Under the pieces are notes generated by a model that searched no databases, was not told the origin of the DNA, and saw only the letters and a list, made by a program, of their open reading frames with translations. A program made the translations under genes and the position numbers. This document shows positions 6,351 to 52,154 of a stretch of 64,000 bases of DNA, piece by piece. Within the stretch, counting starts at the first letter, position 1. Each line of letters begins with the position of its first letter. This DNA is from a virus: positions 64,001 to 128,000 of IMG/VR virus record IMGVR_UViG_3300031963_008656. One strand, 5' to 3'.

Positions 6351-6351
6351 A

Positions 6352-7098: not shown

Positions 7099-7107
7099 GT
7101 GCTTTCC

Positions 7108-10047: not shown

Positions 10048-10251
10048 TTAGTTGCGCCCCCAGGATACCCGAGCCCAGGCCCGTTCATGCAACCAATACA
10101 GCACAGTATTCACACCCATTTGCACAAATGCAATGACCGAGCTAATTCCAAAACTACCAGTAATTAAATACGCAATGGTAAATGTGCTGGCGCTGCCAGT
10201 AATGCGCCAGGTCAGAGTTTTTACTAGACTACGACCATTGCTGTCGGTCAC
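10048..10251 (-). CDS. DUF2061 membrane protein
   Basis: 67 aa; start is GTG overlapping the upstream stop as GTGA. Shows the DUF2061 pattern: R-S-L-VKTLTWRITGSASTF at the start, two membrane segments, and the VLYWLHERAW ending. Function unknown; in other phages and bacteria it is often found beside sulfate-activation kinases, as here with the APS-kinase-like gene. Confidence 0.85.
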   Translation of the reverse strand: MTDSNGRSLVKTLTWRITGSASTFTIAYLITGSFGISSVIAFVQMGVNTVLYWLHERAWARVSWGRN

Positions 10252-14103: not shown

Positions 14104-14122
14104 TGCAATTCCGCCTGGTCAG

Positions 14123-14130
14123 TATTTAGT
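14123..14130 (-). promoter_or_regulatory. T4-late-type box before radical SAM gene
   Basis: ACTAAATA on the minus strand, 19 nt before ATG 14103. Part of a set with near-constant spacing. Confidence 0.5.
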
Positions 14131-14178
14131 GATTGAATCCATCCAGATCAGTCCACATATCTTGAAGTTGTGCTGGCC

Positions 14179-14185
14179 GTAAATA
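14179..14185 (+). promoter_or_regulatory. possible late-type box before phoH
   Basis: GTAAATA lies 3 nt before the first phoH ATG (14189). If it is a promoter, translation would start further in, for example at TTG 14222, which has AAAAGGAG upstream. Confidence 0.3.
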
Positions 14186-14188
14186 TCC

Positions 14189-32655: not shown

Positions 32656-32658
32656 TAT

Positions 32659-34866
32659 ATGGCAGAAGTAATAAGAGAAGCAGGGTACACTGGGTTTGTC
32701 CAGAGATTGACCTGGGTGCATGGCAACGCTGTGCCTGTGACTGCATACTTGTGGGGCGGTGGTGGTGCAGGCGGCGCTAGGGCGCCAACTGGGTCATTTA
32801 CAACCAGTTATCAAGGCGATATTCAGCAGGATCCTTGGTTTGGTCCACTGATACCAAATAAATCTGGTTATTATGAACTTGGTTATAACGTTTTTAACGA
32901 AGGACCAGAAACCTATTACCCAATAGCATGGGTTGTGGTAATAAATGGAATTATAGTTTATGGTTCTCCAGTTCCGCCACCGCCACCTGCACCAAATCCA
33001 GCCAGACTTAATAATCCACCACCCACAATCCTGGCTAACCCAACAACGTTTCAAGGCGTAACAATATACACACAAAATGGAGTACAGTCTCCGTATTTTG
33101 TGAAAGTTTACGATTTTGATTATACCACGTACACAAGTGGCGCAGCAGTAGGCGGCACCGGCGGCGGCGGTGCGTATGCACAGGTTAATTTTACCATCAA
33201 CGAAGGTGACATACTTGATGTTGCAGTAGGACAAGGTGGTGGTGCCGGCGGCGTCACTGCATTGGCCTCTGGAATAACACCAGGCGGCGAAGCTGGTGCT
33301 GGTTTACTTACATCGAGTCTTTTTAACACTGTTACTAACACTGCCTCCCCACCTGTTTATCGTGAATTCAGTCCGACCTACTGCACATTTTTAAACAATT
33401 ACGGAGTTTGGGTAGACCCGCCTTCGGCATCAGTGTTTGACAGAACATATACCGTGGCATTTCCGTCGACTGGCAACTATCAATTTACCATATGCTCTAA
33501 TGGACGAGCAGATTTTTATGTAGATGGTGAATTTGCGGCATTCAGTTATGATCCACAAATTCCCTGGACTGTGGGAGTTATTGTTACAGCTGGCAATAGA
33601 ACTATTAGAATAGTGTCAACTGCTGCTACCGGCAAACGAGGCGCCGTTGCATTAGTTATTGGATCTGGTGTTAATTATGCCGGTGCCCGGGGCGGTGATG
33701 GAATAGCAGGTGGTGGCGGAGCCGGGGGTGGCGGCGGCGCTACAATAATTTTAAAGAATGATGTGATAATTGGTGCAGCCGGTGGCGGAGGCGGAGGCGG
33801 AGCTGGTGGTATCACCAGTGCAGGTGCTAGTGCTCCGGGCGCACGCGGTCAGAATGCCGCAGGATTTTTTGCTGGTCAAAATGGCACCAGCAGAGTGTAT
33901 TATAATGGCGGTGGCTGCGGCGGAGGCGGTGGCGGCATCACAGGTGGCCGTGGTGGTGCATCCCCAGGTGCAGGCGGCGACGGCGGCACATCAGGATCAT
34001 TTGGTGGCAGCACTGGAATTGAAGTGCAAAATCCTTCGGGTAGAACTCCTGGTGGCACAACCAACATTTATTATCGAGCAGGTGTTGCATTAGGTGGACA
34101 GTCTCAAGCCGTTGTTGGCAATCTTGAAGGAAATGGCAGAAACGGCTATGCGGTATTTGTGTTTGAAGTGCCGGACATACATGTAAAAACTGCTGGCACA
34201 TGGAATCCAGTGACCAAAACTTTTGTAAAATATACTGGACTATGGCGCTTGGCTAAGAAAAAATTTATAAAAATAAACGGCGAATGGGTACCAACAATTG
34301 CATCAACCAGTCCGGTGTTTGCAAATTATCTTGGCCTTGGAACAAATCCATTGCCAGCAGATTTTGAAGAATTACCACCACCTCCTCCACCAAGTGGCGG
34401 CGGAGATGGGTATGGCGGTTGGGACGGTGGTGGAGGAGGTGGTGGTGGCAAAGTGATCTGTACAGCACTGTACGAACTTGGCTACATGGAAAAAGAAATA
34501 TTTGAATACGACCAAGCCTATGGTTTATGGTTGTATCAAAATGATTTTGTGTCTTATCGTGGCTACAGAGCCTGGGCTGATGTACTTGTACAATATGTCA
34601 AAGGGCAAGGTCGACCCATGTTGCCTAAATTGTTATTCTGGAAAACCGCTGATGAACAACAACGATTGAGTCAGCAGTTGGCCATATCACTAGCACGAGT
34701 CATCGGTGGCGCATTCTCTAAAGAAATTGCTCGACGTGCTGGGCACAACATTCCATTCAGCATTGGAGGATGGGCATGTGTGACTGTGGGTCTTGCAGTT
34801 AACAAAGCCATTGGTTATATTGTAAAGAAAATTAAAAAGACCAGTACTATTGATTACAAGGAATAA
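32659..34866 (+). CDS. glycine-rich adhesin-like protein with PA14-like domain
   Basis: 735 aa. An N-terminal WVHGNAVPVTAYLWGGGGAGG segment is followed by a domain of the glycine-rich fibre kind. Around 255-330 a PA14-like jelly roll is suggested (YTVAFPSTGNYQFTICSNGR, FYVDGEFAAF). Residues about 350-480 are poly-Gly stretches (GGGGAGGGGG, GGGGGGGAGG), as in polyglycine-sandwich adhesins such as gp38 of T4-like phages. The last 150 residues are compact and helical, with a LGYMEKEIFEYD segment. Starts 3 nt after the fibre gene; probably the receptor-binding partner. Confidence 0.8.
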   Translation: MAEVIREAGYTGFVQRLTWVHGNAVPVTAYLWGGGGAGGARAPTGSFTTSYQGDIQQDPWFGPLIPNKSGYYELGYNVFNEGPETYYPIAWVVVINGIIVYGSPVPPPPPAPNPARLNNPPPTILANPTTFQGVTIYTQNGVQSPYFVKVYDFDYTTYTSGAAVGGTGGGGAYAQVNFTINEGDILDVAVGQGGGAGGVTALASGITPGGEAGAGLLTSSLFNTVTNTASPPVYREFSPTYCTFLNNYGVWVDPPSASVFDRTYTVAFPSTGNYQFTICSNGRADFYVDGEFAAFSYDPQIPWTVGVIVTAGNRTIRIVSTAATGKRGAVALVIGSGVNYAGARGGDGIAGGGGAGGGGGATIILKNDVIIGAAGGGGGGGAGGITSAGASAPGARGQNAAGFFAGQNGTSRVYYNGGGCGGGGGGITGGRGGASPGAGGDGGTSGSFGGSTGIEVQNPSGRTPGGTTNIYYRAGVALGGQSQAVVGNLEGNGRNGYAVFVFEVPDIHVKTAGTWNPVTKTFVKYTGLWRLAKKKFIKINGEWVPTIASTSPVFANYLGLGTNPLPADFEELPPPPPPSGGGDGYGGWDGGGGGGGGKVICTALYELGYMEKEIFEYDQAYGLWLYQNDFVSYRGYRAWADVLVQYVKGQGRPMLPKLLFWKTADEQQRLSQQLAISLARVIGGAFSKEIARRAGHNIPFSIGGWACVTVGLAVNKAIGYIVKKIKKTSTIDYKE

Positions 34867-34867
34867 T

Positions 34868-35113
34868 ATGTTTACCATACAAGAACTTACACAGAAATTT
34901 CATGCGCTTGATGACAGCACAAAAGACAAGGTGTTTGAACAGGTGACCAAGAACGCAGCTCAGTATAATGAAATTATACCCAACGTCCCATTATTTCTTT
35001 ACATACTGCAAGGTGATGGTGGTGTTCCTGTGTGGGCCAAAAACAGTTCAATTCTGTTGCAGTATAAGGCTTGGGCATCAAACCCAAAAAATCGATCTAA
35101 ACTGCAAAGCTAG
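34868..35113 (+). CDS. small protein downstream of adhesin
   Basis: 81 aa from ATG 34868 ([16 protein letters not shown]), 1 nt after the adhesin stop; a start at 34850 would run inside the adhesin. Helical and charged, with [20 protein letters not shown] in the centre. May be a fibre assembly factor, by position only. Its end overlaps the convergent IscA-like gene by 17 nt. Confidence 0.65.
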
Positions 35114-35417
35114 ATCCACAACCACAGGTTGAAGAAGCCTGTGGATTGTTGATTACAAAACTGGCACTCATCAAATCTTCTTTGTAGTCAATTGATGCGC
35201 CGTTGAGATATTGCATGCTCATAGCATCCACAACTACCTTGACTTCATCATATGCAAAGTCAAAATCATCTTCGTTTTTGGTTTCTTCAAATGTGAATCC
35301 ATAACTGAATCCTGAACAGCCGCCGCCCTGCACAAACACTCTGAGCATGAGATTAGGGTTATTTTCTTCAGCAATCAGTTCGCGTAATTTTGACACAGCA
35401 CCAGTTTCTAAATTCAT
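35097..35417 (-). CDS. A-type Fe-S carrier (IscA/ErpA-like)
   Basis: 106 aa from ATG 35417, coupled to the SOD stop as TAATG; the longer frame to 35519 lies inside SOD. The three family cysteines are present: [11 protein letters not shown] and the C-terminal CGCGSSF. Length fits IscA (107 aa). It would carry or deliver Fe-S clusters, for example to the two radical SAM enzymes at 13-17 kb (inference). Host-like, possibly acquired. Confidence 0.92.
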
Positions 35418-35965
35418 TATAGTCTTTCGTTGCAAACGTCCCAGTTGATTATCTTCCACACGTTGTTGAGATAACCTTCTTTGTCCGCTTGATAATCTAA
35501 CGCCCATGCATGTTCCCACCAGTCTACCAAACAGCAGATGTCTGTGCGTACAGCATGATTGGCGATGGTCTTGATGTCACCACCAGTACTCAAATACACC
35601 CAACCTGATCCTTGGATCTTCATGGCAGTTTCTTTGAACTGCTCCTTGAAGTCTTCCCAAGTTTTAAATTTTTCTTCTATCAACGCGAGTACTGCGCCGC
35701 GGGGACGGTTGGTAGCTTTAGGAGCCCTAAGCTGAGGGAAGAACTTATTGTGTAAAAAACTGCCAGCACGATTAAAATCCGCATTGCCTTCTCCTGCGTT
35801 GTAACGCTTTGCATAGCCTTTGGCCAAGTGGTCAAAGTGATAGTCTATTGTGGCTCGGCTCATCACAGGCTCAAGATCCTTGATGCCGTAGGGCAAAGGA
35901 GTGGTTTCCAGTTTTGCCGGACGTGTGCTTGCTTCTACAAGATTGATGTGATTGCGAATTTCCAT
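35417..35965 (-). CDS. sodB-like: Fe/Mn superoxide dismutase
   Basis: 182 aa, cytosolic (no signal peptide). Metal-ligand positions are recognisable: [11 protein letters not shown] (first His), FLHNKFF (second), and the [15 protein letters not shown] signature with Asp and His. Slightly shorter than E. coli SodB (193 aa). It turns superoxide into H2O2 and O2, a plausible aid during infection. TAATG overlap with the IscA-like gene puts both in one operon. Confidence 0.93.
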
Positions 35966-35973
35966 AAACTTAT

Positions 35974-36975
35974 TTATTTTGCAATGTCGGCAATTTCTGC
36001 AATCTCAGTTATTTCGCCAGTGTAAAAAAACACCAGTTTTTCGTTAGGGGTTTTATAACAACTTTTTTGTGGGTCCACCCAAGGTACTAGTTTTTCTAAA
36101 TCCAGTGGTTCTTCAATGTTGTAGACCCATGCTTGTACAGGTTCGTTTTTCAATCTAACTGAATCTCTGTTCCACTGCCCCAACAACATGCCATAACTAA
36201 AACTCCACTCTTGTGGTTTTCGATGCACAAAATTTACTTTCCAAACTTCTGGATTGTATCTAATCAATGGCACAGTTTCTTCAGTGCAATGCACTTCGAT
36301 GGTGATGGGTGTGGGTTTTTGTTCAGTCCAGTCTTTACAAAAACGACGCCACCAGGTTTGTATTTGCATGCCCGTGGCCAACTGTGTTTGTAAAAACTGA
36401 GGAATGTATTCTGGATCGTATTTGGTATGACGAACAATTGTACGGTCCAGGCGCATTTGTTGAGCCACATCATCAAAATGCATTTCTATTCCATGGTCAA
36501 CATTGTCTAGTCCCAACATCTGTTCAAAATGTTCAGTTGACTCGATCAACGTACCAGGTCCCCATTGCGTAAAATTTGATTTAGGAGTACCGTACACAAT
36601 TACTGGAATATTTTCAGCTGGCAATCCATTCAAGATCAACGCTGCCAGTCGATTGTTGCCCACAGTAACATCGCCGGTGTCACACATCACAAATGGAGGA
36701 AAGAAAAACTTTTCTCGGCGGTACTTGTATGTCATGTCGTTTATTTTGCTAATTTTTCTTGACGCATCAGCATCATCAGACTCTATTGCAGTTTTGACCA
36801 CACTGTTGAAACAAGTTTCTACATATGAATCATAAAACGCCTGGGGAATCCCAGTCAAATAATACATTTTGAGATCAGGCATGGTTTCAAGCCAGCCGGT
36901 TCCATATTTGCGAACTATGTAGCTTGGACCGTTTTTTTGATCGGTAAGATATTGTATGCTTTCTTTTACTGACAT
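35974..36975 (-). CDS. ParB-like domain protein, unknown
   Basis: 333 aa from ATG 36975 (TAATG with upstream stop). Residues about 100-135 (DTGDVTVGNNRLAALILNG, then IPVIVYG) resemble the ParB/sulfiredoxin N-terminal fold, G-x-NRL-x-A-L-x-x-G. The remainder has no known motif and ends in a repetitive ITEIAEIADIAK. Could be a CTP-dependent ParB-like switch or nuclease; only the short motif supports this. Confidence 0.65.
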   Translation of the reverse strand: MSVKESIQYLTDQKNGPSYIVRKYGTGWLETMPDLKMYYLTGIPQAFYDSYVETCFNSVVKTAIESDDADASRKISKINDMTYKYRREKFFFPPFVMCDTGDVTVGNNRLAALILNGLPAENIPVIVYGTPKSNFTQWGPGTLIESTEHFEQMLGLDNVDHGIEMHFDDVAQQMRLDRTIVRHTKYDPEYIPQFLQTQLATGMQIQTWWRRFCKDWTEQKPTPITIEVHCTEETVPLIRYNPEVWKVNFVHRKPQEWSFSYGMLLGQWNRDSVRLKNEPVQAWVYNIEEPLDLEKLVPWVDPQKSCYKTPNEKLVFFYTGEITEIAEIADIAK

Positions 36976-37643
36976 TATTGTTCCCTCTTTGTTGGCATTA
37001 ATCGATAACCTAGACCTTTGACAAATTCCCATGACATTGAGTCTGCTTCAAAGTCTTCTCGCATGGCTGTGCCACCATGCAGTTTGCAAAAACTATATTC
37101 TGTTGCGTAAAAATTCATTCCAGTAAAATAACTTATGTTTGCTAATCTTTCAAGCCCCAGGCCATGATTGTGAGTACACATCTGCCAACTGTGCCCGGCC
37201 ACTATCCAATGTCTACAAGGCTCCGGTAACAAGGAAGTGTGATGTAAAAAATCAACATCATTGTTAAAAAAAATACTTTGTTCGTTGTCTAACAAATATC
37301 GTTGCACAAGATGTGATGTTTGCTCATGTTGTCCTGAACTTTTTAAGATATTTAATGCAACCCAAAGATCTGCGTCTGTTGGTGTTTCTGTTGGATTGTT
37401 TCGTAGATCATTATTGTAAGTCCAACAGTACCGCTGAAAAGTGTTACGCAGACTCCGATCGTTCCAGTCAAATCGATTGTGTGTTAGGCTGTTGACTATA
37501 CATTTGAAATTGTATTCTCGCAACTGATGTATGAGATTTGCATAAAAATAGTCTTTAAAAAATTGCCCGCCTGCAGGCTCCCAACAATCCAACAAGATCA
37601 ATCCATCTACAGTTGGTATTGTGTTGGTTTTTGAAACTATCAT
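36975..37643 (-). CDS. hypothetical protein
   Basis: 222 aa, starts MIVSKTNTIPTVDGLILLDCWEP. Rich in His, Trp and Tyr (HSWQMCTHNHGLGLERL), no recognised motif. Coupled by ATGA to IF-1 upstream and by TAATG to the ParB-like gene downstream. Confidence 0.7.
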   Translation of the reverse strand: MIVSKTNTIPTVDGLILLDCWEPAGGQFFKDYFYANLIHQLREYNFKCIVNSLTHNRFDWNDRSLRNTFQRYCWTYNNDLRNNPTETPTDADLWVALNILKSSGQHEQTSHLVQRYLLDNEQSIFFNNDVDFLHHTSLLPEPCRHWIVAGHSWQMCTHNHGLGLERLANISYFTGMNFYATEYSFCKLHGGTAMREDFEADSMSWEFVKGLGYRLMPTKREQ

Positions 37644-37861
37644 TTGCGTCTTGTGATACGACCTCGTGATAGATCGTATGGGCTGAATACAATTTCTACT
37701 CGATCGCCAAGAAGAACTTTGATGTTGTTGGTCCGCATACGCCCTGACAGGTATCCAATCACCACATTATCTATGCTATCTAATCTGATGCGAAACATAG
37801 CGGCAGGCAAAATCTCCTCTACTGTTCCTTCCATACTGATTGTTTCTTCTTGTTTGGCCAT
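37640..37861 (-). CDS. infA-like: translation initiation factor IF-1 homologue
   Basis: 73 aa, against 72 in E. coli. The S1/OB-fold pattern is clear: MEGTVEEILPAAMFRIRL at 10-27, GYLSGRMRTNNIKVLLGD and the ending SPYDLSRGRITRRK. IF-1 binds the 30S A site and helps start selection, including on leaderless mRNAs with IF-2/IF-3. It lies in an operon after the fatty-acid genes and a WYL_2-like gene. A phage copy may compete with or replace the host factor. Confidence 0.93.
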   Translation of the reverse strand: MAKQEETISMEGTVEEILPAAMFRIRLDSIDNVVIGYLSGRMRTNNIKVLLGDRVEIVFSPYDLSRGRITRRK

Positions 37862-37873
37862 ATAAGTGTTTAC

Positions 37874-38260
37874 TTATTCGAATTTCAATTCCGCAGTGAT
37901 CTTCTTCAGTCGATCAAAACGGAAACTGCGCCATTCTTGTTTTTCTAGGTCAAACACACGAAGGCTATGTGGATCAGGTTCCTTGCGCGGTTTTTTGCTT
38001 TCTTTAACAATACCATCCACTGGTAATACTGGAGTTATTGCAGCTGAGGGAATGAAATCCCAGTTGAGTGTGCAAAGCATTTCGCGATCGGTGCCATCTG
38101 CTTTGACAAAGGTCACTTTGATGGTACTTTTTTGTAGCAGGCTCTTGATCCAATCACGGATGATGGCCTTGTTGACATCATCTGCCTCTTGATATTGTGT
38201 GCCTGGCGCTCCCTTGAGCAGTCGCACCACTTCTTGTTTTTCCCATGTAGCCATATCCAT
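37874..38260 (-). CDS. WYL_2/DUF2693-like SH3-fold protein
   Basis: 128 aa from ATG 38260, with SD AGAGGAG 8 nt before; ATG 38302, which forms ATGA with the ketosynthase stop, would add 14 residues. The C-terminal half has TIKVTFVKADGTDREM, LNWDFIP and VFDLEKQEWRSFRFDRL, the pattern of the WYL_2 family common in T4-like phages. Function unknown; possibly ligand or nucleic-acid binding. Confidence 0.75.
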   Translation of the reverse strand: MDMATWEKQEVVRLLKGAPGTQYQEADDVNKAIIRDWIKSLLQKSTIKVTFVKADGTDREMLCTLNWDFIPSAAITPVLPVDGIVKESKKPRKEPDPHSLRVFDLEKQEWRSFRFDRLKKITAELKFE

Positions 38261-38298
38261 TTGGAGTTCTCCTCTATAAGTTAATTGACGTTTTTTCT

Positions 38299-39459
38299 TC
38301 ATGCTAAAAATTTTGTCAATGCCAGCACCACATTGGTACCACCAAATGCAAAGCTGTTGTTCAAACACACATCTTGTTCATGCTCAACAACCTCAGTTGG
38401 TAGGTACACACCTTCAGGAATTGCAGGATCAGGATCAGTTAGATTCCAATTGGGAATAATTTGATTTGTTTTTAGCACAGCCAAACAAGCCAGCAGTTCC
38501 ATGGCTCCAGAGTTGCCCAACAAGTGCCCGTGCAGTGCCTTGGTTGAACTGATGGGAACGCCACTGCCAAATACTTTTTGTATACTACTTAATTCAACCA
38601 AGTCTCCAACAGGTGTGCCTGTGCCATGTGCGTTGATATAGGTCACACGACTTGGATCAATACCATTCAGTGCAGATTGCATGGCAGAGATCTGACCTTG
38701 TTCACTGGGCTTGGTTAGAGTTTCGCTGCCACAACTGATACCATATCCCACAATTTCTGCATGTATCACAGCATTTCGAACCAGCGCATGATCCAAACTT
38801 TCTAGAACATAAACAACACTGCCTTCGCCCAAGATGATGCCATCTCGTGTGGCACTGAATGGTGCAGACTTTGTGCCCATGGCCCGCATGGCCCGCCATT
38901 GGTCCACTAAAATGGGACTGAGGCAAAATTCGGCGCCGCCGGCTGCCATAACGCTGACCTCGCCATGTTTGATGGCTTTGTATGCTTCTCCAATAGACAC
39001 ACTGCTGGAAGCACATGCCGCTGTGTGTGTGAACACAGGACCTGTGATGTTGTCTTTTGACGCAATAAAACTGGCTGCGCCACTGCTCATTGATGATACC
39101 AAACTGTTTGGACGCACTCGACCTTTATCCTGGAATTCAAGAATGGTGTTGTTCACTTCGTAGGCAGCACCTGCGCCTGTACCAATGTAAACACCATCCA
39201 CACTGGTTTTTGCATCTGCTTTTGCTTGTTGGTATGCCAGCATGGTGGCGCGAGCAAACAAACTTGTGGCCGCAGTATCATAACGATCAAATTGATCATT
39301 GATGTTGCTGTGTCCTAATCCAACCTTGGCAGTGTTGGCCTGGAGAGTTTCACTAAAAATGATGCCTGATGTTCCTGCATACATGGCAGCAACAACTTGA
39401 TCATAACTATTGCCCAATGGAGTAATGCAACCCACTCCTGTAATAACTACTCTATTCAT
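38299..39459 (-). CDS. fabF-like: beta-ketoacyl-ACP synthase (KAS II, FabF-like)
   Basis: 386 aa. Catalytic triad is intact: Cys149 in TAACASSS, His278 in NAHGTGTPVGD and His312 in LHGHLLGNSG, with Lys307 in SSTK. Near-terminal NNSFAFGGTN is also FabF-like. It condenses acyl-ACP with malonyl-ACP to lengthen fatty acids. Slightly shorter than FabF (about 412). ATGA overlap with the desaturase, which itself overlaps ACP, gives one three-gene operon. No ketoreductase, dehydratase or enoyl reductase is in the window, so host enzymes must finish the cycle. Confidence 0.94.
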   Translation of the reverse strand: MNRVVITGVGCITPLGNSYDQVVAAMYAGTSGIIFSETLQANTAKVGLGHSNINDQFDRYDTAATSLFARATMLAYQQAKADAKTSVDGVYIGTGAGAAYEVNNTILEFQDKGRVRPNSLVSSMSSGAASFIASKDNITGPVFTHTAACASSSVSIGEAYKAIKHGEVSVMAAGGAEFCLSPILVDQWRAMRAMGTKSAPFSATRDGIILGEGSVVYVLESLDHALVRNAVIHAEIVGYGISCGSETLTKPSEQGQISAMQSALNGIDPSRVTYINAHGTGTPVGDLVELSSIQKVFGSGVPISSTKALHGHLLGNSGAMELLACLAVLKTNQIIPNWNLTDPDPAIPEGVYLPTEVVEHEQDVCLNNSFAFGGTNVVLALTKFLA

Positions 39460-40205
39460 GTTTTGATCAGTCGAATAAATTGTGCCGCATAGTCAACTTC
39501 CCACCACTGCTCACGTTGATTCCACCGTTGTGGATTGGCATGATGATTGTTGTGCCATTCTCCAATGACTAGGGCTAGATAGCTATTTGAACTGGTATCC
39601 TTTGTGGCATGATTCTGATAGGTGGTCAAACCGTGAGTGTGACACACGGTGTTCACAAAACCCATGGCCAACAATGCTCCTGCATTAGCAATACTATAGC
39701 ACAAAAACAATACGGGGTCAATGGCCAATAGCACCAATGCAAACGTCAAAACAATCAATGCGTAATAATTGTGAGTGAACTTCATCCAAGGATCTCTTAG
39801 ATCTCTAATGCCATCCCACATGCTGAGATTGGACAAGTTCCAATTGAACAGTATCACATTGAGAATTCCAATGTCTGGAGCATGTGGATCTTGTGCAGTG
39901 TCTGTGTGTACATGATGGGCTCGGTGGATGATGGAATAACCAACTGGTGACCCAAAACAGGCCAAACAAGAACTCACACACAAAAATGCATGCCAAAACG
40001 GAGTGACTGTGTAACTGCGGTGTGAGAAGTATCTATGCAATCCTGCATGGTGTGAGATGAACAACAAAAAACTGTAAAAGAACACAAGGTATATTGCGTA
40101 CCACCAATGCCATTGATATACCAATACTGGTATGCCCAGCATCGCAACAATCAATTGAACTGAGAGAACCTGTTTGGTTCTGTCAGGATCACCTTGCCAA
40201 ATCAT
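39456..40205 (-). CDS. membrane fatty-acid desaturase (delta-9 type)
   Basis: 249 aa. Three histidine boxes hold the di-iron site: H57RYFSH62, H94RAHH98 and H218NNHH222. Four or more hydrophobic stretches (about 15-50, 72-92, 147-185) place it in the inner membrane. The layout matches acyl-CoA/acyl-lipid delta-9 desaturases. It would put a double bond into acyl chains using O2 and an electron donor, making membranes more fluid. Between ACP and KAS genes, each overlap being ATGA. Confidence 0.93.
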   Translation of the reverse strand: MIWQGDPDRTKQVLSVQLIVAMLGIPVLVYQWHWWYAIYLVFFYSFLLFISHHAGLHRYFSHRSYTVTPFWHAFLCVSSCLACFGSPVGYSIIHRAHHVHTDTAQDPHAPDIGILNVILFNWNLSNLSMWDGIRDLRDPWMKFTHNYYALIVLTFALVLLAIDPVLFLCYSIANAGALLAMGFVNTVCHTHGLTTYQNHATKDTSSNSYLALVIGEWHNNHHANPQRWNQREQWWEVDYAAQFIRLIKT

Positions 40206-40480
40206 TTTTTAACACGATTGACCGGATCGTTCACAGCTTCGGTCAAACTGTCAATGATTTCTGCCAAGTTAGCTGGCTGACTCATGTCAGCAGAGTTTAC
40301 TTTGATGCCAAGTTCATCTTCAACATCAAATATCATTTCAATCACAGACAGTGAATCAATCTTGGGATTGATATTTTGCAAGTCTGCAAGAGGTGCATCC
40401 TCTGCAAAGTTGTCAATGTCTAGATCGTACTGTTTTTTGCAAATCCTCAAAATAACTGTTTTGACTTCGTCGCGTGTCAT
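40202..40480 (-). CDS. acpP-like: acyl carrier protein
   Basis: 92 aa, acidic. The phosphopantetheine serine is Ser43 in KIDSLSVIEMIFDVEDELGI, with the usual acidic helix II. N-terminal DEVKTVILRICKKQYDLD is helix I. Slightly longer than AcpP (78 aa). It needs a 4'-phosphopantetheinyl transferase, presumably from the host. First gene of the ACP-desaturase-KAS operon; SD AAAGG. Confidence 0.93.
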   Translation of the reverse strand: MTRDEVKTVILRICKKQYDLDIDNFAEDAPLADLQNINPKIDSLSVIEMIFDVEDELGIKVNSADMSQPANLAEIIDSLTEAVNDPVNRVKK

Positions 40481-40499
40481 GTTTTACCTTTCTATAATT

Positions 40500-40766
40500 T
40501 CATGCAAATTTTAACAAAAATACAAGATACTTTTTCTCATCCACAATCTCAACTTCTCGACTGTATCCATTCATGTGAGTGTCCGATGGCAACAACCGGA
40601 TGCCGTATGTGTCCCGGAACCATGCTATTGTATCCATATCAGTTTTACAATGCGTTCTGCCTTCTTCTGACTGTCGACACTTTTGCATTCGTACCCAAAA
40701 GCCAGCATCACCTAGAATGGTGTCTAGTCTTTTTTCCGGCGTTGAATACAAGTCGTTGTTAGCCAC
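40500..40766 (-). CDS. hypothetical small protein
   Basis: 88 aa with a GTG start that overlaps the previous gene by 8 nt. Has EKRLDTILGDAGFWVRMQKC and two more Cys/His residues; no known motif. Lies just before ACP. Confidence 0.6.
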   Translation of the reverse strand: MANNDLYSTPEKRLDTILGDAGFWVRMQKCRQSEEGRTHCKTDMDTIAWFRDTYGIRLLPSDTHMNGYSREVEIVDEKKYLVFLLKFA

Positions 40767-41157
40767 GGCGCATGGTTGCTATATCATGTGCTTCTTCATT
40801 TGAGAAGATGGGCACAGCATTGGACTTGTGCATGGTACCCACACCAATCATCTTGGTGCCAGTGTACTGCGGAATTGCCTTGCTGGACACAGGGCCCAAC
40901 ACAGAGTCAGCACGACTAGGAATGTTGTGTCCTGTGGGACGGCCTATAGGTGTGCTCAATTTGTAGTCCAGTGCAGGTGCTTTCATGGCACGAGTGCGGC
41001 GCTTTTGGTCAGCATCCACTTCCCACTTCTTTTGCAGTTCTTTCCACGAAGCATCAAGCTCGCGGGCTTTTTTTGCTTCCTCGGCGTTGCGAAACTTGAC
41101 TTTGCCTTTGCGCTTGCCGCCAAGACTGAGACTGGGGTGGTGGAGGTGCATGCTCAT
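40759..41157 (-). CDS. conserved T4-like basic protein
   Basis: 132 aa. Lys-rich N-terminus (GGKRKGKVKFRNAEEAKKAR) with a helical ELQKKWEVDAD region and the phrase RPTGHNIPSRADSVLGP. I recognise it as a conserved protein of T4-like phages; function unknown. ATGA overlap with the 50-aa gene upstream. Confidence 0.75.
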   Translation of the reverse strand: MSMHLHHPSLSLGGKRKGKVKFRNAEEAKKARELDASWKELQKKWEVDADQKRRTRAMKAPALDYKLSTPIGRPTGHNIPSRADSVLGPVSSKAIPQYTGTKMIGVGTMHKSNAVPIFSNEEAHDIATMRRG

Positions 41158-41306
41158 GGTAGGTCTTTCAAAGGTCGCTCAGGGCGGGTGGTACAAAATT
41201 CACAGGTGGGATCGTCACACTTGGAGTCAATCCATTCATTGATCACTGGATTGTAGTAAGCGTCATGCTCCGCAGAATATGCAGTGTCTTTTTCATCATT
41301 GATCAT
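41154..41306 (-). CDS. 50-aa protein with Cys cluster
   Basis: MINDEKDTAYSAEHD start; CDDPTCEFC supplies three cysteines that could bind zinc. Both ends overlap neighbours by ATGA, strong support that it is a gene. Function unknown. Confidence 0.65.
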   Translation of the reverse strand: MINDEKDTAYSAEHDAYYNPVINEWIDSKCDDPTCEFCTTRPERPLKDLP

Positions 41307-41485
41307 TTGCTTCTGGCCTTTCTACATGCTTCGCGCATGGCAGTTGAAAAATCAGGGCTGATTTCGCTCCAAGTGCAGTCAATCCTGCGTTCACTTGATT
41401 GCAAGGAATTACTCCACACAATAAAAACAAACATCAAAATGGCCAGAGCAACCACAGCCAGCATTATCAATGTGTCACGTATCAT
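41303..41485 (-). CDS. 60-aa single-pass membrane protein
   Basis: Hydrophobic residues 6-25 (LIMLAVVALAILMFVFIVW) form one membrane helix; the rest is a small cytoplasmic or periplasmic tail with two Cys. ATGA overlaps on both sides. Confidence 0.65.
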   Translation of the reverse strand: MIRDTLIMLAVVALAILMFVFIVWSNSLQSSERRIDCTWSEISPDFSTAMREACRKARSK

Positions 41486-41712
41486 TTGCGTAGGAGTTCC
41501 ATGGTGTACTCAACATCTCGCATGTGAGCAACAGGCTTGAGCCAGCCGTTGTTGATGCATTCTGCAATGACTTGTTTATATTGTGCAGGACAATGATTAC
41601 TAACTTCAAATCCAGCCCTAGGCACTACTCGAATGCCATCGGGCGAGAATGTGAAATCTGAATCATTTTGACGCAGTGTTTTGTGGGGGCGGCTTGCAGA
41701 AATCTTAATCAT
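41482..41712 (-). CDS. small phage protein, predicted leaderless
   Basis: 76 aa. Basic start (MIKISASRPHKTLRQ), and MRDVEYTMELLRK at the end. Six nt separate the promoter -10 from the ATG and no SD is present, so the transcript probably starts at the A of ATG. First gene of the operon reaching to the ACP region. Confidence 0.7.
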   Translation of the reverse strand: MIKISASRPHKTLRQNDSDFTFSPDGIRVVPRAGFEVSNHCPAQYKQVIAECINNGWLKPVAHMRDVEYTMELLRK

Positions 41713-41718
41713 GCATGC

Positions 41719-41747
41719 AGTATAGCATATCCTGATTTATTGGTCAA
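41719..41747 (-). promoter_or_regulatory. early-type promoter
   Basis: TTGACC (41747-41742), 17 bp, TGC-TATACT (41724-41719). The upstream gene's TAA stop abuts the -35. Six nt before ATG 41712. Confidence 0.72.
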
Positions 41748-42062
41748 TTACTTAAAAAGTATTAAGGCCATCAAAACCGCTTGCACAATGAATCCTGCAC
41801 CCACTGTGATGATGTTGAGCATGTCTTTGAGCACCACTGCCCGTAAGAACAGCAGGACCAGGCCGGCCCACATAAACAGCACAATGTCCAAACTGGGTGT
41901 GCGATCACTAAGTCCGGTCATCAGCGCCAAAAGTGTGGGAATGGTTGCGGCATGAATCACAATGGCCGCTAGCCAACCTAGTGTTTCTGCGGAGATTTTT
42001 GGCAAGTGATCTTTCAGCCAAAGTTGCAGGATTTCGGCTGTGTGTTGCAAGTCAAATTTCAT
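41748..42062 (-). CDS. membrane protein, 2-3 segments
   Basis: 104 aa. Hydrophobic stretches at about 28-48, 58-74 and 82-103 (LGWLAAIVIHAATIPTLLAL; IVLFMWAGLVLLFLRAVV). It overlaps the SleB-like gene by ATGA. The arrangement lysin plus small membrane protein would fit a lysis-linked role, but no holin family is recognised. Confidence 0.7.
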   Translation of the reverse strand: MKFDLQHTAEILQLWLKDHLPKISAETLGWLAAIVIHAATIPTLLALMTGLSDRTPSLDIVLFMWAGLVLLFLRAVVLKDMLNIITVGAGFIVQAVLMALILFK

Positions 42063-42634
42063 CGTTTATCTCCGTAAAAAATGTGTCGGCCAATCTTTTC
42101 AATACGCGGTTTGCCCCAGTTGGGATTCACATAGTCTGCATGATAATATAGGGCGTTTTTCAAGCCAGGCAATCGGAAGTTTTCCAACAGCACCTTCTTG
42201 GCCACTTCTTCGCTTTCGCGCCACAGTGGAGTATAAACTGCTCGTGTTTTGTGATTGGTTTCGCAGTACCAGGAGAACTGGCATACTACCTTTTCATAAA
42301 ACACATTTTTTTGATAAACCACGCCACACACGGAATCAGGAAAACGTCCAGATTCCACACGGTTCATTGTGACTTGAGCCACTGCCACTTTGCCTTCAAA
42401 AGGCTCTGAGGCTGCTTCCCAGTAGATGTTACGGGTAAGGCAGTCCAGTTGTCGAGTGCGCTCGGCAGCAGACACATAGCCTGCTGGTAGATTTCCTGTT
42501 TGTTCGCGCAAGGCATCCAGTCGGCTTTGACACACTGCAATCACAGTGGCAACGACCAACCAGAAGCCTAGGGCTTTCAGGATGCGTGAGCTCCATGTGG
42601 CCCACCTGTTGAGAGAGATAGTTTTTTCTTTCAT
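42059..42634 (-). CDS. SleB-like cell-wall hydrolase
   Basis: 191 aa from ATG 42634 (a GTG at 42667 extends it). One N-terminal membrane segment (about 15-32) then the Hydrolase_2/SleB domain: LTRNIYWEAASEPFEGK, VAVAQVTMNRVES, FSWYC and ALYYHADYVNPNWG. The family cleaves peptidoglycan (lytic transglycosylase or amidase activity); the Glu of YWEAASE is a candidate catalytic residue. Membrane-anchored, so it acts in the periplasm. A second murein enzyme beside the GH19 endolysin. Confidence 0.88.
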   Translation of the reverse strand: MKEKTISLNRWATWSSRILKALGFWLVVATVIAVCQSRLDALREQTGNLPAGYVSAAERTRQLDCLTRNIYWEAASEPFEGKVAVAQVTMNRVESGRFPDSVCGVVYQKNVFYEKVVCQFSWYCETNHKTRAVYTPLWRESEEVAKKVLLENFRLPGLKNALYYHADYVNPNWGKPRIEKIGRHIFYGDKR

Positions 42635-42685
42635 GGTAGTTTTACTTACTGGAATGGTTGCTATCACCGGAATTACCGGGCCAAA

Positions 42686-42712
42686 ATGGTGCCGTTTTTA
42701 AACAAACGGCGC
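42686..42712 (-). other. hairpin after NAD synthetase leader region
   Basis: GCCGTTT-loop-AAACGGC inverted repeat downstream of nadE, between nadE and the SleB-like gene, without a good T-run. It may be a weak terminator or an mRNA structure. Confidence 0.3.
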
Positions 42713-42721
42713 AGTTAACTA

Positions 42722-43534
42722 TCAAAACTTGCAGACCGGTATTGGCAGCATCTTGTGCATGTTTCTAGCACGAATGTCTTGGTACCGCTTGAGTTTTTTT
42801 CTATCATCTGCTGACAATTTGGCGCTGCCAGGCATGTCGGAGTCCACAGCCTTGCATCGTTGCAAAAAGTCCAAGGCCATCATGCGCTCAAGATCTGGGT
42901 AGCTCATGCCCAGTTGACCTTCGTCTGTGCGCCCATCATCCCACAAGCCGTCGGTGGGTGCGGCATCAATGATTTCTTGTGGCAGCCCAAACTCTCTACC
43001 CATATCCCATACTTCTGTTTTCATGCAGTCGCCGATGGGGCTGATATCCACACCACCATCACCATACTTGGTAAAGAAGCCCACACCAAAGTCTTCCACT
43101 CGGTTGCCGGTGCCTACTACAATACCACCATGGCATTGTGCAATTTGGTACAAGGTCATCATACGCAATCTAGCACGTGAGTTGGCAAAAGCCAGTTCAA
43201 CTTGTGATGCATTTTCTGCATCACAAAATGGCACAGTTTTCTTTTCAAACGCAGAGAACACAGACGTCAAATCCATGCTCATGTGTGTGACGTTTTTGTA
43301 GCGTTCCATCAACCAGGTAGCCTGCATTGAACTGCGATTGTCCAGCTTCTTGTTTTGGCGGATGGGCATTTGCACCACAATGGTTGTGAGTCCTGTTTCG
43401 GCGCATAATGCACTCACAACAGATGAGTCAATCCCACCTGAGATCCCTACAACTAGTGTAGAGATCTTGTTTTTTGTTGCGTATTGTCGGATCCATTTTA
43501 CAATGTGCTTGATACGTTGCTTTGGTGTTACCAT
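42722..43534 (-). CDS. nadE: ammonia-dependent NAD synthetase
   Basis: 270 aa from ATG 43534 (SD GGAGG; the frame to 43594 runs into the previous gene). N-type ATP pyrophosphatase P-loop SGGIDSS at 32-38; GTGNRVEDFGVGFFTKYGDG and DISPIGDCMKTEV are NadE signatures. It turns deamido-NAD into NAD with ATP and NH3; there is no glutaminase domain. Suggests phage support of host NAD pools. Confidence 0.93.
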   Translation of the reverse strand: MVTPKQRIKHIVKWIRQYATKNKISTLVVGISGGIDSSVVSALCAETGLTTIVVQMPIRQNKKLDNRSSMQATWLMERYKNVTHMSMDLTSVFSAFEKKTVPFCDAENASQVELAFANSRARLRMMTLYQIAQCHGGIVVGTGNRVEDFGVGFFTKYGDGGVDISPIGDCMKTEVWDMGREFGLPQEIIDAAPTDGLWDDGRTDEGQLGMSYPDLERMMALDFLQRCKAVDSDMPGSAKLSADDRKKLKRYQDIRARNMHKMLPIPVCKF

Positions 43535-44064
43535 TTGACCTCCGGCTTGGGCATTGCTTTTAGTTTGTTCCATACTTCTGCTTTTTCCTTGCATTTCTTT
43601 TCCAGCTTGCGATAGCGTTCTCCCAGTCGGCGCAGATCATCCCACTCTCGTTCCAGTTCAGGATTTGGTGTGAGAATGTTCAGGCGTTCTTCAACCTTTT
43701 CCATCCAGTCTTTAAGACTCTTGCCATTGATGTCAAGATCAGCTTTGTCCCCTCTAAGACTCATCTTGCCACCTTGTTCAATCGTAGATCCTACTGCACT
43801 GTAATTTGCACCAATTGTAAAACTGCCTGTGGTTGTGTTGTTTGTGGTCCAAACAGTGTTGGAGCCAGTGGCACCGTTGAGTCCACCAATGGTGTATCCG
43901 CCAGTGATGTTGGTGGTATCACTTATGATTACAGTTGGCATGGTATTTGCATCAAATGCACTTACCAATGGGGGAATAGCACCGTAAGAAGGGTCGGTTG
44001 TTAGGTCGTTATATTCGTATTCTTTGAGGTTGAGGTTTACCCAGTCGTTTTTATAAGTTGCCAT
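43528..44064 (-). CDS. conserved T4-like virion-type protein
   Basis: 178 aa. N-terminal half beta-rich (Thr/Asn/Gly repeats such as ITGGYTIGGLNGATGS). The C-terminal half has the widespread T4-like sequence LDINGKSLKDWMEKVEERLNI and NPELEREWDDLRRLGERYR, a coiled coil. Known from many T4-like phages as a hypothetical or structural protein. Overlaps nadE by 7 nt and the next gene by 28. Confidence 0.8.
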   Translation of the reverse strand: MATYKNDWVNLNLKEYEYNDLTTDPSYGAIPPLVSAFDANTMPTVIISDTTNITGGYTIGGLNGATGSNTVWTTNNTTTGSFTIGANYSAVGSTIEQGGKMSLRGDKADLDINGKSLKDWMEKVEERLNILTPNPELEREWDDLRRLGERYRKLEKKCKEKAEVWNKLKAMPKPEVKW

Positions 44065-44204
44065 GTTCCGTCTTTGTTGTCAATCCACTGAACGGTGTCG
44101 CCTACGGCCCAGCCTAGTTCGGCGCACAATTCAGTGCCAAGATCCAACAACAGTTCTTCAGGGTTGTTGGGATCCTCAATTACCTGTACAGTCCTAGTCA
44201 TCAT
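44037..44204 (-). CDS. 55-aa conserved phage protein
   Basis: Starts MMTRTVQVIEDPNN (second ATG at 44201) and holds ELGWAVGDTVQWIDNKDGTW, a pattern that looks like an AbrB/SpoVT-type small beta domain and is common in T4-like phages. Overlaps its neighbours by 11 and 28 nt. Confidence 0.65.
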   Translation of the reverse strand: MMTRTVQVIEDPNNPEELLLDLGTELCAELGWAVGDTVQWIDNKDGTWQLIKTTG

Positions 44205-44889
44205 TTTTGATGCCAAACAGTTGCAGTAGGTTCACAAAAATGTTGATGAAGTCCATGTACAATGTGAGCGCACCTAAGATTTCTGCAGGTGTATCTGCGT
44301 CATCTGTGGATACCATTTCACGGATTTGTTGTGTGTCGTAGGCTGTGAGGCCCAGGAATATAATGATCGCAATGGCAGAGATAACCATGGTCATCACTGA
44401 ACTGCCAATAAAGATGTTCACAATACTTGCAATGATTATGGCAACAAGTCCTATGATCAAAAATTGCCCAAAGCTCTCCAAACTGCGTTTGGTAAAGTAT
44501 CCGTAAAAACTCATGGTAGCAAACAGAATGGCACTTGAAGCAAACGCCATTACCAAACTACCTGTGGTATAAACATGCACAATGGCGCCCATGCTCAGGC
44601 CCATTACACCTGCGAATCCATGCAACAGTCCCACAGCCACTCGGTGTGGTGGGTTGTTGGCCAGTGCATAACTAACTCCAAATACTGCTACCAAGGGCAA
44701 GAACAGCGTGATCCATTTCATCACTCCAGTGAAAAAGAATGCCATTGCGGCTGGACTGGATGCTACTAATCCAGCTACTACGGCACTGGTCACAATGGCC
44801 ATGAGCATATGATTGTACACACGCAACATGGCCGAATTGACTTCACCTGCTGTTCTGTAAGATGTTTCCTGTATGGTTGCTTCGTACAT
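44194..44889 (-). CDS. Bax-inhibitor-1 / YbhL-type membrane protein
   Basis: 231 aa from ATG 44889 (SD GAGGAG, 6 nt). Seven hydrophobic stretches, as in the BI-1/TMBIM family of Ca2+-leak channels. Family signatures near the C-terminus: GLTAYDTQQI and GALTLYMDFINIFVNLLQLFG. Acidic end residues (IKNDD) fit the family pH-sensing region. In bacteria YccA/YbhL proteins interact with FtsH; a phage copy may delay membrane collapse or block FtsH degradation of phage proteins (inference). Confidence 0.92.
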   Translation of the reverse strand: MYEATIQETSYRTAGEVNSAMLRVYNHMLMAIVTSAVVAGLVASSPAAMAFFFTGVMKWITLFLPLVAVFGVSYALANNPPHRVAVGLLHGFAGVMGLSMGAIVHVYTTGSLVMAFASSAILFATMSFYGYFTKRSLESFGQFLIIGLVAIIIASIVNIFIGSSVMTMVISAIAIIIFLGLTAYDTQQIREMVSTDDADTPAEILGALTLYMDFINIFVNLLQLFGIKNDD

Positions 44890-45031
44890 GATGTTCTCCT
44901 CGAAGTTTACTATAATGGTGAGCCCGAGCAAATTTGTTTTGAATCAATTGCTCGCGTTGCTCTCGGGACATAAACATGGGCCAAGATTCCTCATGTGGTT
45001 TATGTAATTGCTGTTCCTTATCCTTGGTCAT
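44843..45031 (-). CDS. small His/Gln-rich protein
   Basis: 62 aa, MTKDKEQQLHKPHEESW start coupled by ATGA to the 61-aa gene. Its end overlaps the BI-1 start by 47 nt, more than is usual here. Charged and His-rich (RAHHYSKLRGEHH). Plausible gene, not certain. Confidence 0.5.
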   Translation of the reverse strand: MTKDKEQQLHKPHEESWPMFMSREQREQLIQNKFARAHHYSKLRGEHHVRSNHTGNILQNSR

Positions 45032-45213
45032 TTTGCGGCTAGTGCTTCTTTCTCAGCGGTAATTTCTTTACGGCGCTCTTTGATGGCTTTGCTCATCTCT
45101 TGCAAGGCCTTGCGGGCACGAGCGGCAGCGGCTTTCACACCCTTGCCAGTAAATTTTTCGTTCTCTGAAATATAAGTTTCGAAAGCGGTTTTGAGTTGTT
45201 CATGATTGGTCAT
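45028..45213 (-). CDS. small histone-like phage protein
   Basis: 61 aa, all helical and Lys/Ala-rich (GKGVKAAAARARKALQEM, KAIKERRKEI). I recall similar proteins in T4-like phages; DNA binding is plausible. Driven by a consensus promoter with a palindrome in its spacer. SD AAGGAAAC. Confidence 0.75.
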   Translation of the reverse strand: MTNHEQLKTAFETYISENEKFTGKGVKAAAARARKALQEMSKAIKERRKEITAEKEALAAK

Positions 45214-45237
45214 AGATGTTTCCTTTGTAAAATACTA

Positions 45238-45266
45238 ATTATACATTGTGCGTCTCACAATGTCAA
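45238..45266 (-). promoter_or_regulatory. consensus sigma70 promoter with palindromic spacer
   Basis: TTGACA (45266-45261), 17 bp, TATAAT (45243-45238): perfect hexamers. ACATTGTG-N5-CACAATGT (45243-45263) is a perfect 8-5-8 dyad covering the spacer, as an operator would. Confidence 0.8.
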
Positions 45267-45293
45267 GAAAAACTTGGAGTTTTGGCACTCCAC

Positions 45294-45539
45294 CTAGATG
45301 TAGATGTGGCGCCGGTTCCAAGTGTCCCATACTGTCACTGCGTCCCAATTGTGTGTCCACGAAATTAAAAATCTATCAAACGCTTGTTGATGATGTAGCA
45401 TCATTCGATTGCCTGACACGGTGGCGTGATCAACTCTATGTTCTTTGATCCAAGCCTTGAGCTGGCTTTCTGCTTGATTGTTGTTTCGTACAATCACAAT
45501 GTACAGCGGTTCGGCTGTACGAAACTGAGTTATAGACAT
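45294..45539 (-). CDS. small phage protein
   Basis: 81 aa, starts MSITQFRTAEPLYIVIV, ends WDAVTVWDTWNRRHIYI. ATG directly follows the upstream TAA. No motif known. Confidence 0.65.
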   Translation of the reverse strand: MSITQFRTAEPLYIVIVRNNNQAESQLKAWIKEHRVDHATVSGNRMMLHHQQAFDRFLISWTHNWDAVTVWDTWNRRHIYI

Positions 45540-51093: not shown

Positions 51094-51336
51094 TTATGCC
51101 CAGTGTAGCACAAACGCAAAGAAGTCGCGGTCAGAGTCAAAGTAAAAAATGTATCTGCCAGGGCGGTGATCCGAACTGCCATCAATCAGTTGCCAACGCC
51201 ACTCATCTATCAGTTCAGTTTTGCACCAAGCCAGCACACGATCCAGTTCGCCGTAGGGTTTGAGAATTTCACGAGCATAGCGGAAGCTGTCCCCTGGGCG
51301 TATTTCTTGTGAAGAATGATGTCTTAGCAGGTTCAT
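51094..51336 (-). CDS. small protein of an F-x-F...LRWA paralogue set
   Basis: 80 aa from ATG 51336, overlapping the carboxypeptidase stop (TGATG). The C-terminus YIFYFDSDRDFFAFVLHWA matches the ends of the proteins at 52162, 52500 and, more loosely, 52685. Role unknown. Confidence 0.7.
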   Translation of the reverse strand: MNLLRHHSSQEIRPGDSFRYAREILKPYGELDRVLAWCKTELIDEWRWQLIDGSSDHRPGRYIFYFDSDRDFFAFVLHWA

Positions 51337-52154
51337 CAATAGTATGTATTGGCAAATTCCTGTGGTTGCAAATTTTGATCCAGCACATGATTGTACATGA
51401 TGTTTTTAACTGTGTTCAATCGATCAATTTTTGTTCTACTGCCCAGTACCACAATCACATACTGTTGTCCACGTTGATTGGCAACCAAGCCCACACACCA
51501 CCCAGCAGCCGAAGTCAGTCCAGTTTTGCTTACCACAATGTTGTCGAATGTGAACAAGATGTTGCCCGAAGTGTGGTCTAACCGAATGGTTCGGATTTGT
51601 TTTTTGTGCCGTGTTTCCAAGGCCACTTGTTTTTTAGTACTGGTCTCACGGATAAACCAATAGTTGGAAGCCAAAGTTATCATTGCAGCCACATCATGCA
51701 CTGTGGAGGTGTTGGCAGCACCCAGTCCCGAAGCATCTTCAAACTGTGTGTGTTTGAGATCCCAAGCCTGAGCTTGACTGTTCATTCGTGCAATAAAAGC
51801 AGTTCTGCCGCCAGGATAATCTTCTGCTAGAGTTTCGGCAGCCGCGTTGTCAGATTTTACCAACATGGCTTCCAGCAGTTGTTCTCTAGTGTATTGTTGC
51901 CTGGGCAAATAACTGCCCACACGCTTGGTCAGTGTGAGTCGTCTGCTGAGATCCTTGTCATAGTCCAAGGCAACCATGGCAGTCATGATCTTGGTGATTG
52001 ACGCAATGGCTCGCACACGATCCGCATTGCGAGAGAGTTCAATATGATTGGTACTGGTGTTTAGTAGTAGTACTGATTCTGAATTTGGTGTGGGCCGGAC
52101 AGGCTTGGCCACAGCCACATTTGCCATCATCGCAAGTATCAAAATCCATCGCAT
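51336..52154 (-). CDS. dacA-like: D-alanyl-D-alanine carboxypeptidase-like (S11)
   Basis: 272 aa. Signal peptide at 1-16 (RWILILAMMANVAVA) sends it to the periplasm. Penicillin-binding motifs are complete: S52ITK55, S101DN103 and K210TG212. It would trim the terminal D-Ala of muropeptides and so reduce cross-linking. No C-terminal membrane anchor is evident, unlike PBP5. It lies among small paralogues with overlap on one side. Confidence 0.92.
   Translation of the reverse strand: MRWILILAMMANVAVAKPVRPTPNSESVLLLNTSTNHIELSRNADRVRAIASITKIMTAMVALDYDKDLSRRLTLTKRVGSYLPRQQYTREQLLEAMLVKSDNAAAETLAEDYPGGRTAFIARMNSQAQAWDLKHTQFEDASGLGAANTSTVHDVAAMITLASNYWFIRETSTKKQVALETRHKKQIRTIRLDHTSGNILFTFDNIVVSKTGLTSAAGWCVGLVANQRGQQYVIVVLGSRTKIDRLNTVKNIMYNHVLDQNLQPQEFANTYY

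Follow-up and report, generated by a model that had tools for sequence, protein, structure and literature searches.

Cyanophages reportedly encode lipid desaturases (Roitman et al. 2018); these are phage-borne membrane desaturase genes, like the one studied here, but apparently single ones, with no ACP or KAS partner mentioned where that work is cited. We analysed a three-gene cassette that encodes a predicted acyl carrier protein (ACP), a predicted membrane di-iron fatty acid desaturase (DES1), and a beta-ketoacyl-ACP synthase (KAS1). It lies in what we call the window, i.e., the whole stretch of 64,000 bases spanning positions 64001-128000 of the IMG/VR virus record IMGVR_UViG_3300031963_008656 (G000; 214,935 bases). 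Viruses of Arctic brine and sea ice carry desaturase genes (vFAD) that were modelled on the structure 4ZYO, are under purifying selection, and led to a membrane fluidity model; two of these viruses have five copies each (PMC7300359). Their desaturases resemble DES1, but the section of that paper devoted to them names neither a KAS nor an ACP. For fonsimyophages (PMP-D group, freshwater pelagimyophages), fabF and a stearoyl-CoA desaturase are listed together (PMC7029224). This puts a fabF-type gene and a desaturase in one T4-like phage group, as here, and corrects the first-pass annotation of the window, which knew only of single phage genes of these kinds. However, the listing is a single sentence giving no adjacency, ACP, or function, unlike what we describe for the window. 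Desaturase and fabF genes have also been found in marine viromes (fabF, fabZ, and desC; PMC10653327) and on a pelagiphage-like scaffold (a desaturase; PMC11480375).

Phage ACPs have precedents too. Predicted roseobacter prophages were described with fabG-acpP-fabF (PMC8224337): ACP and FabF are ascribed to phages, as here, but in the order of the host chromosome, with fabG and without a desaturase, and these genes may be host DNA. The ACP of Erythrobacter phage vB_EliS-R6L, whose function is said to be unclear, is phage-encoded like that of the window, but stands alone instead of being part of a cassette (PMC5463345); a further phage ACP is mentioned elsewhere (PMC10452541). Among bacterial natural-product systems, the terminal-alkyne cassette JamABC pairs a membrane-bound desaturase with an ACP reserved for it (JamB/JamC; PMC4356899). 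Like the trio, it is a compact three-gene set that combines such a desaturase with an ACP of its own, but its third gene encodes an acyl-ACP synthetase where the trio has a KAS. An acyl-ACP synthetase had no match in the genes scanned on the flanks of the trio, the rest of the genome not having been searched for PF00501. We found no report of a phage ACP-desaturase-KAS cassette in the literature searched, which omitted most subscription papers. What is notable is the linkage of the genes, their recurrence, and the number of desaturases; viral lipid genes as such (desaturases, phage ACPs, phage fabF) were already known.

Results

A packed cassette with complete active sites

The three open reading frames (ORFs) predicted by the first-pass annotation are present with the boundaries it gave, on the minus strand, which it had left out (Table 1). 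They are transcribed in the order ACP, DES1, KAS1, and ATGA overlaps, also noted by that annotation, join them at both junctions. The ACP start is preceded by AGAAAGG. Since the preceding gene (40500-40766) ends 20 bases upstream of the trio, the latter seems to belong to a longer transcription unit. All three proteins score above Pfam cut-offs: ACP for PP-binding (PF00550; 26.4 bits for a cut-off of 20.8, E 8.2e-6), DES1 for FA_desaturase (PF00487; 36.7 bits for 29.7, E 5e-9), and KAS1 for the N and C domains of ketoacyl-synt (113.6 and 102.8 bits, cut-off 20.8 each). In PHROGs, ACP has a weak match (E 0.0015), the desaturase matches a family of unknown function (7.2e-14), and KAS1 has no match at 0.01.

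KAS1 belongs to the beta-ketoacyl-ACP synthase family by its Pfam domains, catalytic residues, and thiolase-type fold. Residues C149, H278, K307, and H312 are invariant in all 11 aligned phage KAS, including a distant family described below (KAS2), and they line up with E. coli FabF and FabB, whose Cys-His-His triad corresponds to Cys149/His278/His312 and which have HGTSTP where KAS1 has HGTGTP. Its AlphaFold2 model (mean pLDDT 83.6) best matches the FabF structure 2rjt (TM 0.89 to the query, E 2.4e-42). ACP is predicted to be an acyl carrier protein (PF00550) from its profile score and its Asp-Ser phosphopantetheine site: Ser43 lies in a D-S-L motif, with D42-S43 invariant in six of six aligned phage ACPs, and the profile also matches the PDB entry 2n50 (4.5e-9). 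A five-residue insert just before Ser43 is common to the seven phage ACPs compared and is lacking in E. coli AcpP and two bacterial ACPs. The assignment of DES1 to the membrane fatty acid desaturases (PF00487) is likewise a prediction, from its profile, three His boxes (H57-H62, H94-H98, and H218-H222), and an Asn/His pair (N185/H189), all invariant in the three DES1 compared. The boxes and the N-x3-H motif align with the SCD1 structures 4zyo (profile match 1.7e-9) and 4ymk, at positions that we take to be the iron ligands of SCD1. The AlphaFold2 model of DES1, built from eight sequences only, is too poor for a fold search (mean pLDDT 46.4).

The trio genes are under purifying selection: of 18 gene-by-gene pairs, 8 have an unsaturated dS, and for these the ratio of nonsynonymous to synonymous substitution rates (dN/dS) is 0.08-0.15; dS is saturated in the other 10. 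This and the Pfam matches rule out chance ORFs. Being virus-encoded, conserved, and under purifying selection, the three are viral auxiliary metabolic genes. The catalytic residues that the first-pass annotation had singled out (ACP Ser43, the desaturase His boxes, and the KAS triad) are all intact and conserved across phage homologues, and nothing points to the decay that inactive enzymes, a possibility it had raised, would be expected to show. Very probably, the proteins are active enzymes, or an active carrier, of the predicted classes.

The cassette recurs in four phage lineages

The trio is found, in the same order, in four distinct lineages: the virus of the window (four contigs), L008, L009, and L023/L039. 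The contigs of the first are the window's own record and three further IMG/VR contigs of 138, 286, and 364 kb, all with the same sequence over the 13,158 bases that surround the trio (32302-45459); when the comparison is extended, the 138-kb contig shows a single mismatch and a single break. In the other lineages, KAS is 75% (L008), 71% (L009), and 73% (L023/L039) identical to KAS1. All eight ACP/DES and DES/KAS junctions across the four lineages are ATGA overlaps. The neighbourhood of L008 is that of the window (16 gene pairs in common), whereas L009 has nothing in common with it across the 13 kb compared except the three trio genes. For L023 the count is six gene pairs: two are trio genes (its ACP, visible in L039, was missed by the ORF picker in this count), and the rest lie scattered at different positions. 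Downstream of KAS1, the gene content varies from lineage to lineage. The first-pass annotation knew of this trio nowhere else: we too found no published example, but it is clearly not confined to one phage. A search for the same gene order, which that annotation had proposed, thus returned both the order and the overlaps in four lineages, and the alternative that the genes are unlinked fails, given that two of these lineages (L009 and L023) have wholly or mostly different neighbours.

A shorter version of the cassette, ACP and KAS1 without desaturase, is present in four T4-like records of three lineages (L010; L011 and L012; L013), flanked by gp32-type and baseplate genes. Its ACP/KAS junction is an ATGA overlap in the three lineages examined, and an ACP homologue is found upstream of KAS in all seven lineages with a trio or a duo. 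In L013, a gene for the holo-ACP synthase AcpS (601-993), above the TIGR00516 cut-off, lies about 4.8 kb from the ACP-KAS pair. It is the sole AcpS match in 10 records (G010 was not searched), with none in the six trio records among those searched.

Relatives in Bacteria and in other phages

The closest bacterial KAS among the best 80 matches listed is 39% identical to KAS1 and comes from Rhodobacteraceae. An ACP gene lies at most 400 nt upstream of KAS in 60 of these 80 loci, and this bacterial acpP-fabF arrangement, also that of E. coli, has ACP directly before KAS, as in the phage duo. It differs from the trio in that no desaturase stands beside KAS in any of the 80 neighbourhoods (flanks up to 4 kb), a sample and not a proof of absence. 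Two of the bacterial relatives looked at (L045 and L065) come after a hexapeptide acyltransferase, with a weak LpxD match under the cut-off in L045, and the HGTGT and HGH motifs of KAS1 are common to L045 and L050. Bacterial desaturases reach 34% identity to DES1, and none of 30 of their loci (L139-L168), again a sample only, has a KAS or an ACP within about 1.5 kb; when the desaturase alignment was used to scan bacterial contigs, 47 pattern matches came up, none of them a relative.

Among 50,697 GenBank phage records, 28 match KAS1, all below 60% identity, three match DES1, and none matches ACP. No record matches both KAS and desaturase. One of the three with a desaturase is Pelagibacter phage Mosig, where the gene is annotated as such, with no KAS or ACP annotated nearby.

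A second pairing and further lipid genes

Another KAS (KAS2, 28-30% identical to KAS1) stands directly before another desaturase (DES2, 24-26% identical to DES1) in all 13 contigs that two scans returned, some of them near-copies. Many of these junctions overlap, not always by ATGA, and the neighbours are T4-type clamp and clamp loader genes or DnaB-type helicase genes. The first-pass annotation had proposed phylogenies of the cassette genes. In those made for KAS and desaturase, KAS1 forms one clade (seven rows, SH-aLRT 100) and KAS2 another, and DES1 and DES2 are separate clades as well. These are quick trees with SH-aLRT supports only, 24 of the 80 bacterial KAS, and L085 dropped for an internal stop; L050 takes its sister place in the KAS tree on a long branch. 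As we read the separate clades, KAS and desaturase would have been joined at least twice, in two distant gene families, and the second, separate pairing suggests that the two activities belong together. The fabF and desaturase genes of fonsimyophages are likely akin to the KAS2-DES2 pairs. In L128, KAS2 is immediately preceded by a gene (3204-4004) with 43% identity to an APS-kinase-like P-loop gene of the window (10248-11042).

The 364-kb sibling contig (G002) has six desaturase-like genes, of which five, including four of the five beyond DES1 (Table 1), score above the Pfam cut-off and the sixth retains the His boxes; together they point to lipid unsaturation. G004 has a second desaturase gene. 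A second, short KAS-like gene (323 aa) lies inside a tRNA cluster in G002 and G001 (L195 18901-19872; L200 5694-6665); it has both KAS domains above cut-off and is 25-26% identical to KAS1 and to KAS2. Regarding the rest of the elongation cycle, FabA/FabZ (PF07977) and the PF13561 reductase are each missing from 11 of 11 records, and the PlsC-type acyltransferase (PF01553) from 13 of 13, all of which may be fragments; PF00106 was not searched. A reductase candidate at 15533-16225, SDR-like by eye, has no Pfam match at 1e-3. With neither reductase nor dehydratase found, host enzymes would be needed, in agreement with the first-pass annotation, which had noted that the other reductive enzymes are lacking and took the operon to tap host synthesis instead of replacing it.

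Table 1. Positions of the cassette genes in the window and of the further desaturase-like genes of the 364-kb sibling contig G002.
Feature	Location	Strand	Description
Acyl carrier protein (ACP), predicted	40202-40480	minus	92 aa, first cassette gene; Pfam PP-binding
Membrane di-iron fatty acid desaturase (DES1), predicted	39456-40205	minus	249 aa; Pfam FA_desaturase
Beta-ketoacyl-ACP synthase (KAS1), FabF/FabB type	38299-39459	minus	386 aa; ketoacyl-synt N and C
Desaturase-like gene	L195 (G002:344405-364404) 4458-5189		
Desaturase-like gene	L195 (G002:344405-364404) 5929-6711		
Desaturase-like gene	L191 (G002:1-20000) 4549-5313		
Desaturase-like gene	L192 (G002:128001-148000) 6815-7519		
Desaturase-like gene	L193 (G002:148001-168000) 14000-14755		

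The virus and its other genes

The virus is a T4-like jumbo phage: it has a gp23-type capsid, T4-type replication genes, and a size above 200 kb (364,404 bases in G002). The window itself contains a T4-type clamp loader and a PhoH gene. The T4-like label, which the first-pass annotation had already used, holds for the virus through the Gp23 family, found above its cut-off (E about 1e-98) in the 286- and 364-kb siblings, i.e., in 2 of the 11 records searched, and missing from the window's own 215-kb record and the eight others. The closest GenBank relatives of the sibling Gp23 are jumbo phages, at no more than 65.8% identity (Vibrio phage 2.275.O, 65.6%; PA5oct, 65.3%).

The two ends of the sibling contig (L191 and L195) hold 30 tRNA genes and a tmRNA marked as permuted by ARAGORN, with the tag ANDEKFLMAA. 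L191 also encodes a Gram-negative porin (1670-2560; Porin_4, 2.8e-25), which could alter host uptake or superinfection. The permuted-type tmRNA and the porin gene hint, and only hint, at a host in Proteobacteria. A CsgG curli secretion gene (L192, 3494-4321; 4.5e-52) adjoins an ORF that is curlin-like by eye, and pelagimyophages have been reported to carry curli genes (PMC7029224). Within the window, overlapping ORFs encode an Fe/Mn superoxide dismutase and an A-type Fe-S carrier (35097-35965), both present in L008 too; there are also genes for an NAD synthase (42722-43594), a Bax1-I family membrane protein (44194-44931), a D-Ala-D-Ala carboxypeptidase-like protein (51336-52154), and two radical SAM proteins, one with a SPASM domain (13189-14103 and 16192-17349).

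Discussion

We favour, at roughly even chances, a reading in which the trio would be a phage plug-in that inserts desaturation and elongation into the type II fatty acid synthesis of the host and ends in membrane lipid. E. coli FabF elongates 16:1 to 18:1. The process would involve 1) conversion of the phage ACP to its holo form by a 4'-phosphopantetheinyl transferase, in this phage the host AcpS; 2) addition by the desaturase of a cis double bond to a saturated acyl chain, which the phage ACP would carry or which would by then have been built into membrane lipid; 3) condensation of the chain with malonyl-ACP by the KAS, e.g., from 16:1 to 18:1, the round being completed by host FabG, FabZ, and FabI; and 4) placement of the longer and more unsaturated chains into phospholipid by host acyltransferases. 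The infected cell would end up with a membrane of longer, more unsaturated chains, at a lower cost than that of a full fatty acid synthase. This keeps the fatty-acid reading of the first-pass annotation, as regards a packed and catalytically complete set that depends on the host, and adds to it the ACP-KAS and KAS-desaturase pairs and the extra genes of the sibling contig; the effects on lysis timing or lipid signalling that it also suggested are speculative. Acyl-ACP would be the favoured substrate of the desaturase because the cassette has its own ACP and JamB/JamC provide a precedent (PMC4356899).

Several observations weigh against this proposal. A review presents acyl-ACP desaturases as a soluble plant class (PMC9825965), and acyl-ACP as the substrate of a membrane desaturase therefore rests on JamB-type exceptions; this account and the kinship of DES1 with DesA and SCD1 favour lipid or acyl-CoA. 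All four duo records lack a desaturase match, so KAS and ACP have a use without it. Conversely, no ACP lies near KAS2-DES2 in any of the 13 contigs (PF00550 is missing from 12 of 12 such records searched), which implies that KAS and desaturase can be paired without having an ACP of their own. Finally, all three trio proteins score below the NCBIfam cut-offs of their nearest equivalogs, and family scores therefore fix neither the substrate nor the position of the double bond: ACP has at best 24.3 bits for equivalog and subfamily cut-offs of 66-100 bits, DES1 has 59 bits for the cut-off of 400 of the DesA family NF049918, and KAS1 has 287.8 bits for the 493.75 of the FabF (KAS II) equivalog TIGR03150, still its top NCBIfam match.

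Some of these points fit other explanations. The acyl chain made by the cassette might be a special one, destined not for bulk phospholipid but, e.g., for lipid A or lipopolysaccharide, a lipoprotein, or a small signal, with the phage ACP separating this chain from the host pool; a changed outer membrane could then block superinfection. The insert before Ser43 does set the phage ACP apart from housekeeping ACPs, the nearest bacterial kin of KAS1 mostly come right after an ACP gene of their own, those of L045 and L065 follow a hexapeptide acyltransferase (with the weak LpxD match in L045), the HGTGT/HGH motifs are those of L045/L050 and not the HGTST of E. coli FabF/FabB, and a GNAT-like gene (E 2.8e-4) overlaps DES2 in L128. 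Yet no conserved acyltransferase, PF01553 included, accompanies the trio, what follows KAS1 varies, and adjacent acpP-fabF is an ordinary bacterial order too; we regard a special chain as unlikely, if worth keeping in mind. It is rather improbable that an extra FabF, an extra ACP, and a phospholipid desaturase merely share an operon, with no common intermediate. The best named relatives of DES1 are the DesA family and SCD1, which act on lipids or acyl-CoA. ACP-KAS and KAS-desaturase occur as pairs too, and single viral desaturases have been published (PMC7300359; PMC7678222). Against such independence stand the invariable ATGA junctions, an order kept while neighbourhoods change, and the apparent twofold origin of the KAS-desaturase pairing, in gene families distant from each other.

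The absence of the rest of the cycle would also suit a sink, in which ACP and KAS tie up AcpS, CoA, or malonyl groups, so that lipid synthesis in the host or a defence linked to the membrane is throttled, and catalysis matters less. We consider this very improbable: the active sites of KAS and desaturase are complete and under purifying selection, and a sink has no need of a desaturase. A phage with a lipid programme of its own is a doubtful but broader alternative: six desaturase-like genes, an ACP, and two KAS-like genes would make polyunsaturated or unusual acyl chains foreign to the host, perhaps for a virus-specific membrane state or lipid signal, and the cassette would move between phages as a unit. 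Lastly, an assembly chimera or bacterial DNA binned as viral, which the first-pass annotation had named as what would undo its claim, deserves practically no credence. Many of the 28 GenBank phage records matching KAS are unannotated contigs or prophage-type records that were not inspected singly, and artefacts may exist among them. But the 13,158 bases identical in three other contigs, two of which have Gp23, rule this explanation out for the window; moreover, the trio is present in three further lineages, and the nearest bacterial KAS among the 80 best matches listed is only 39% identical.

The plug-in into host fatty acid synthesis bears on how phage desaturases are understood. They are usually read as single genes borrowed for membrane fluidity. 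Here, the desaturase is tied to a carrier and a condensing enzyme of its own, with fixed overlaps, in several phage lineages. The cassette thereby turns the vague idea that phages remodel the lipids of their hosts into one that can be tested.

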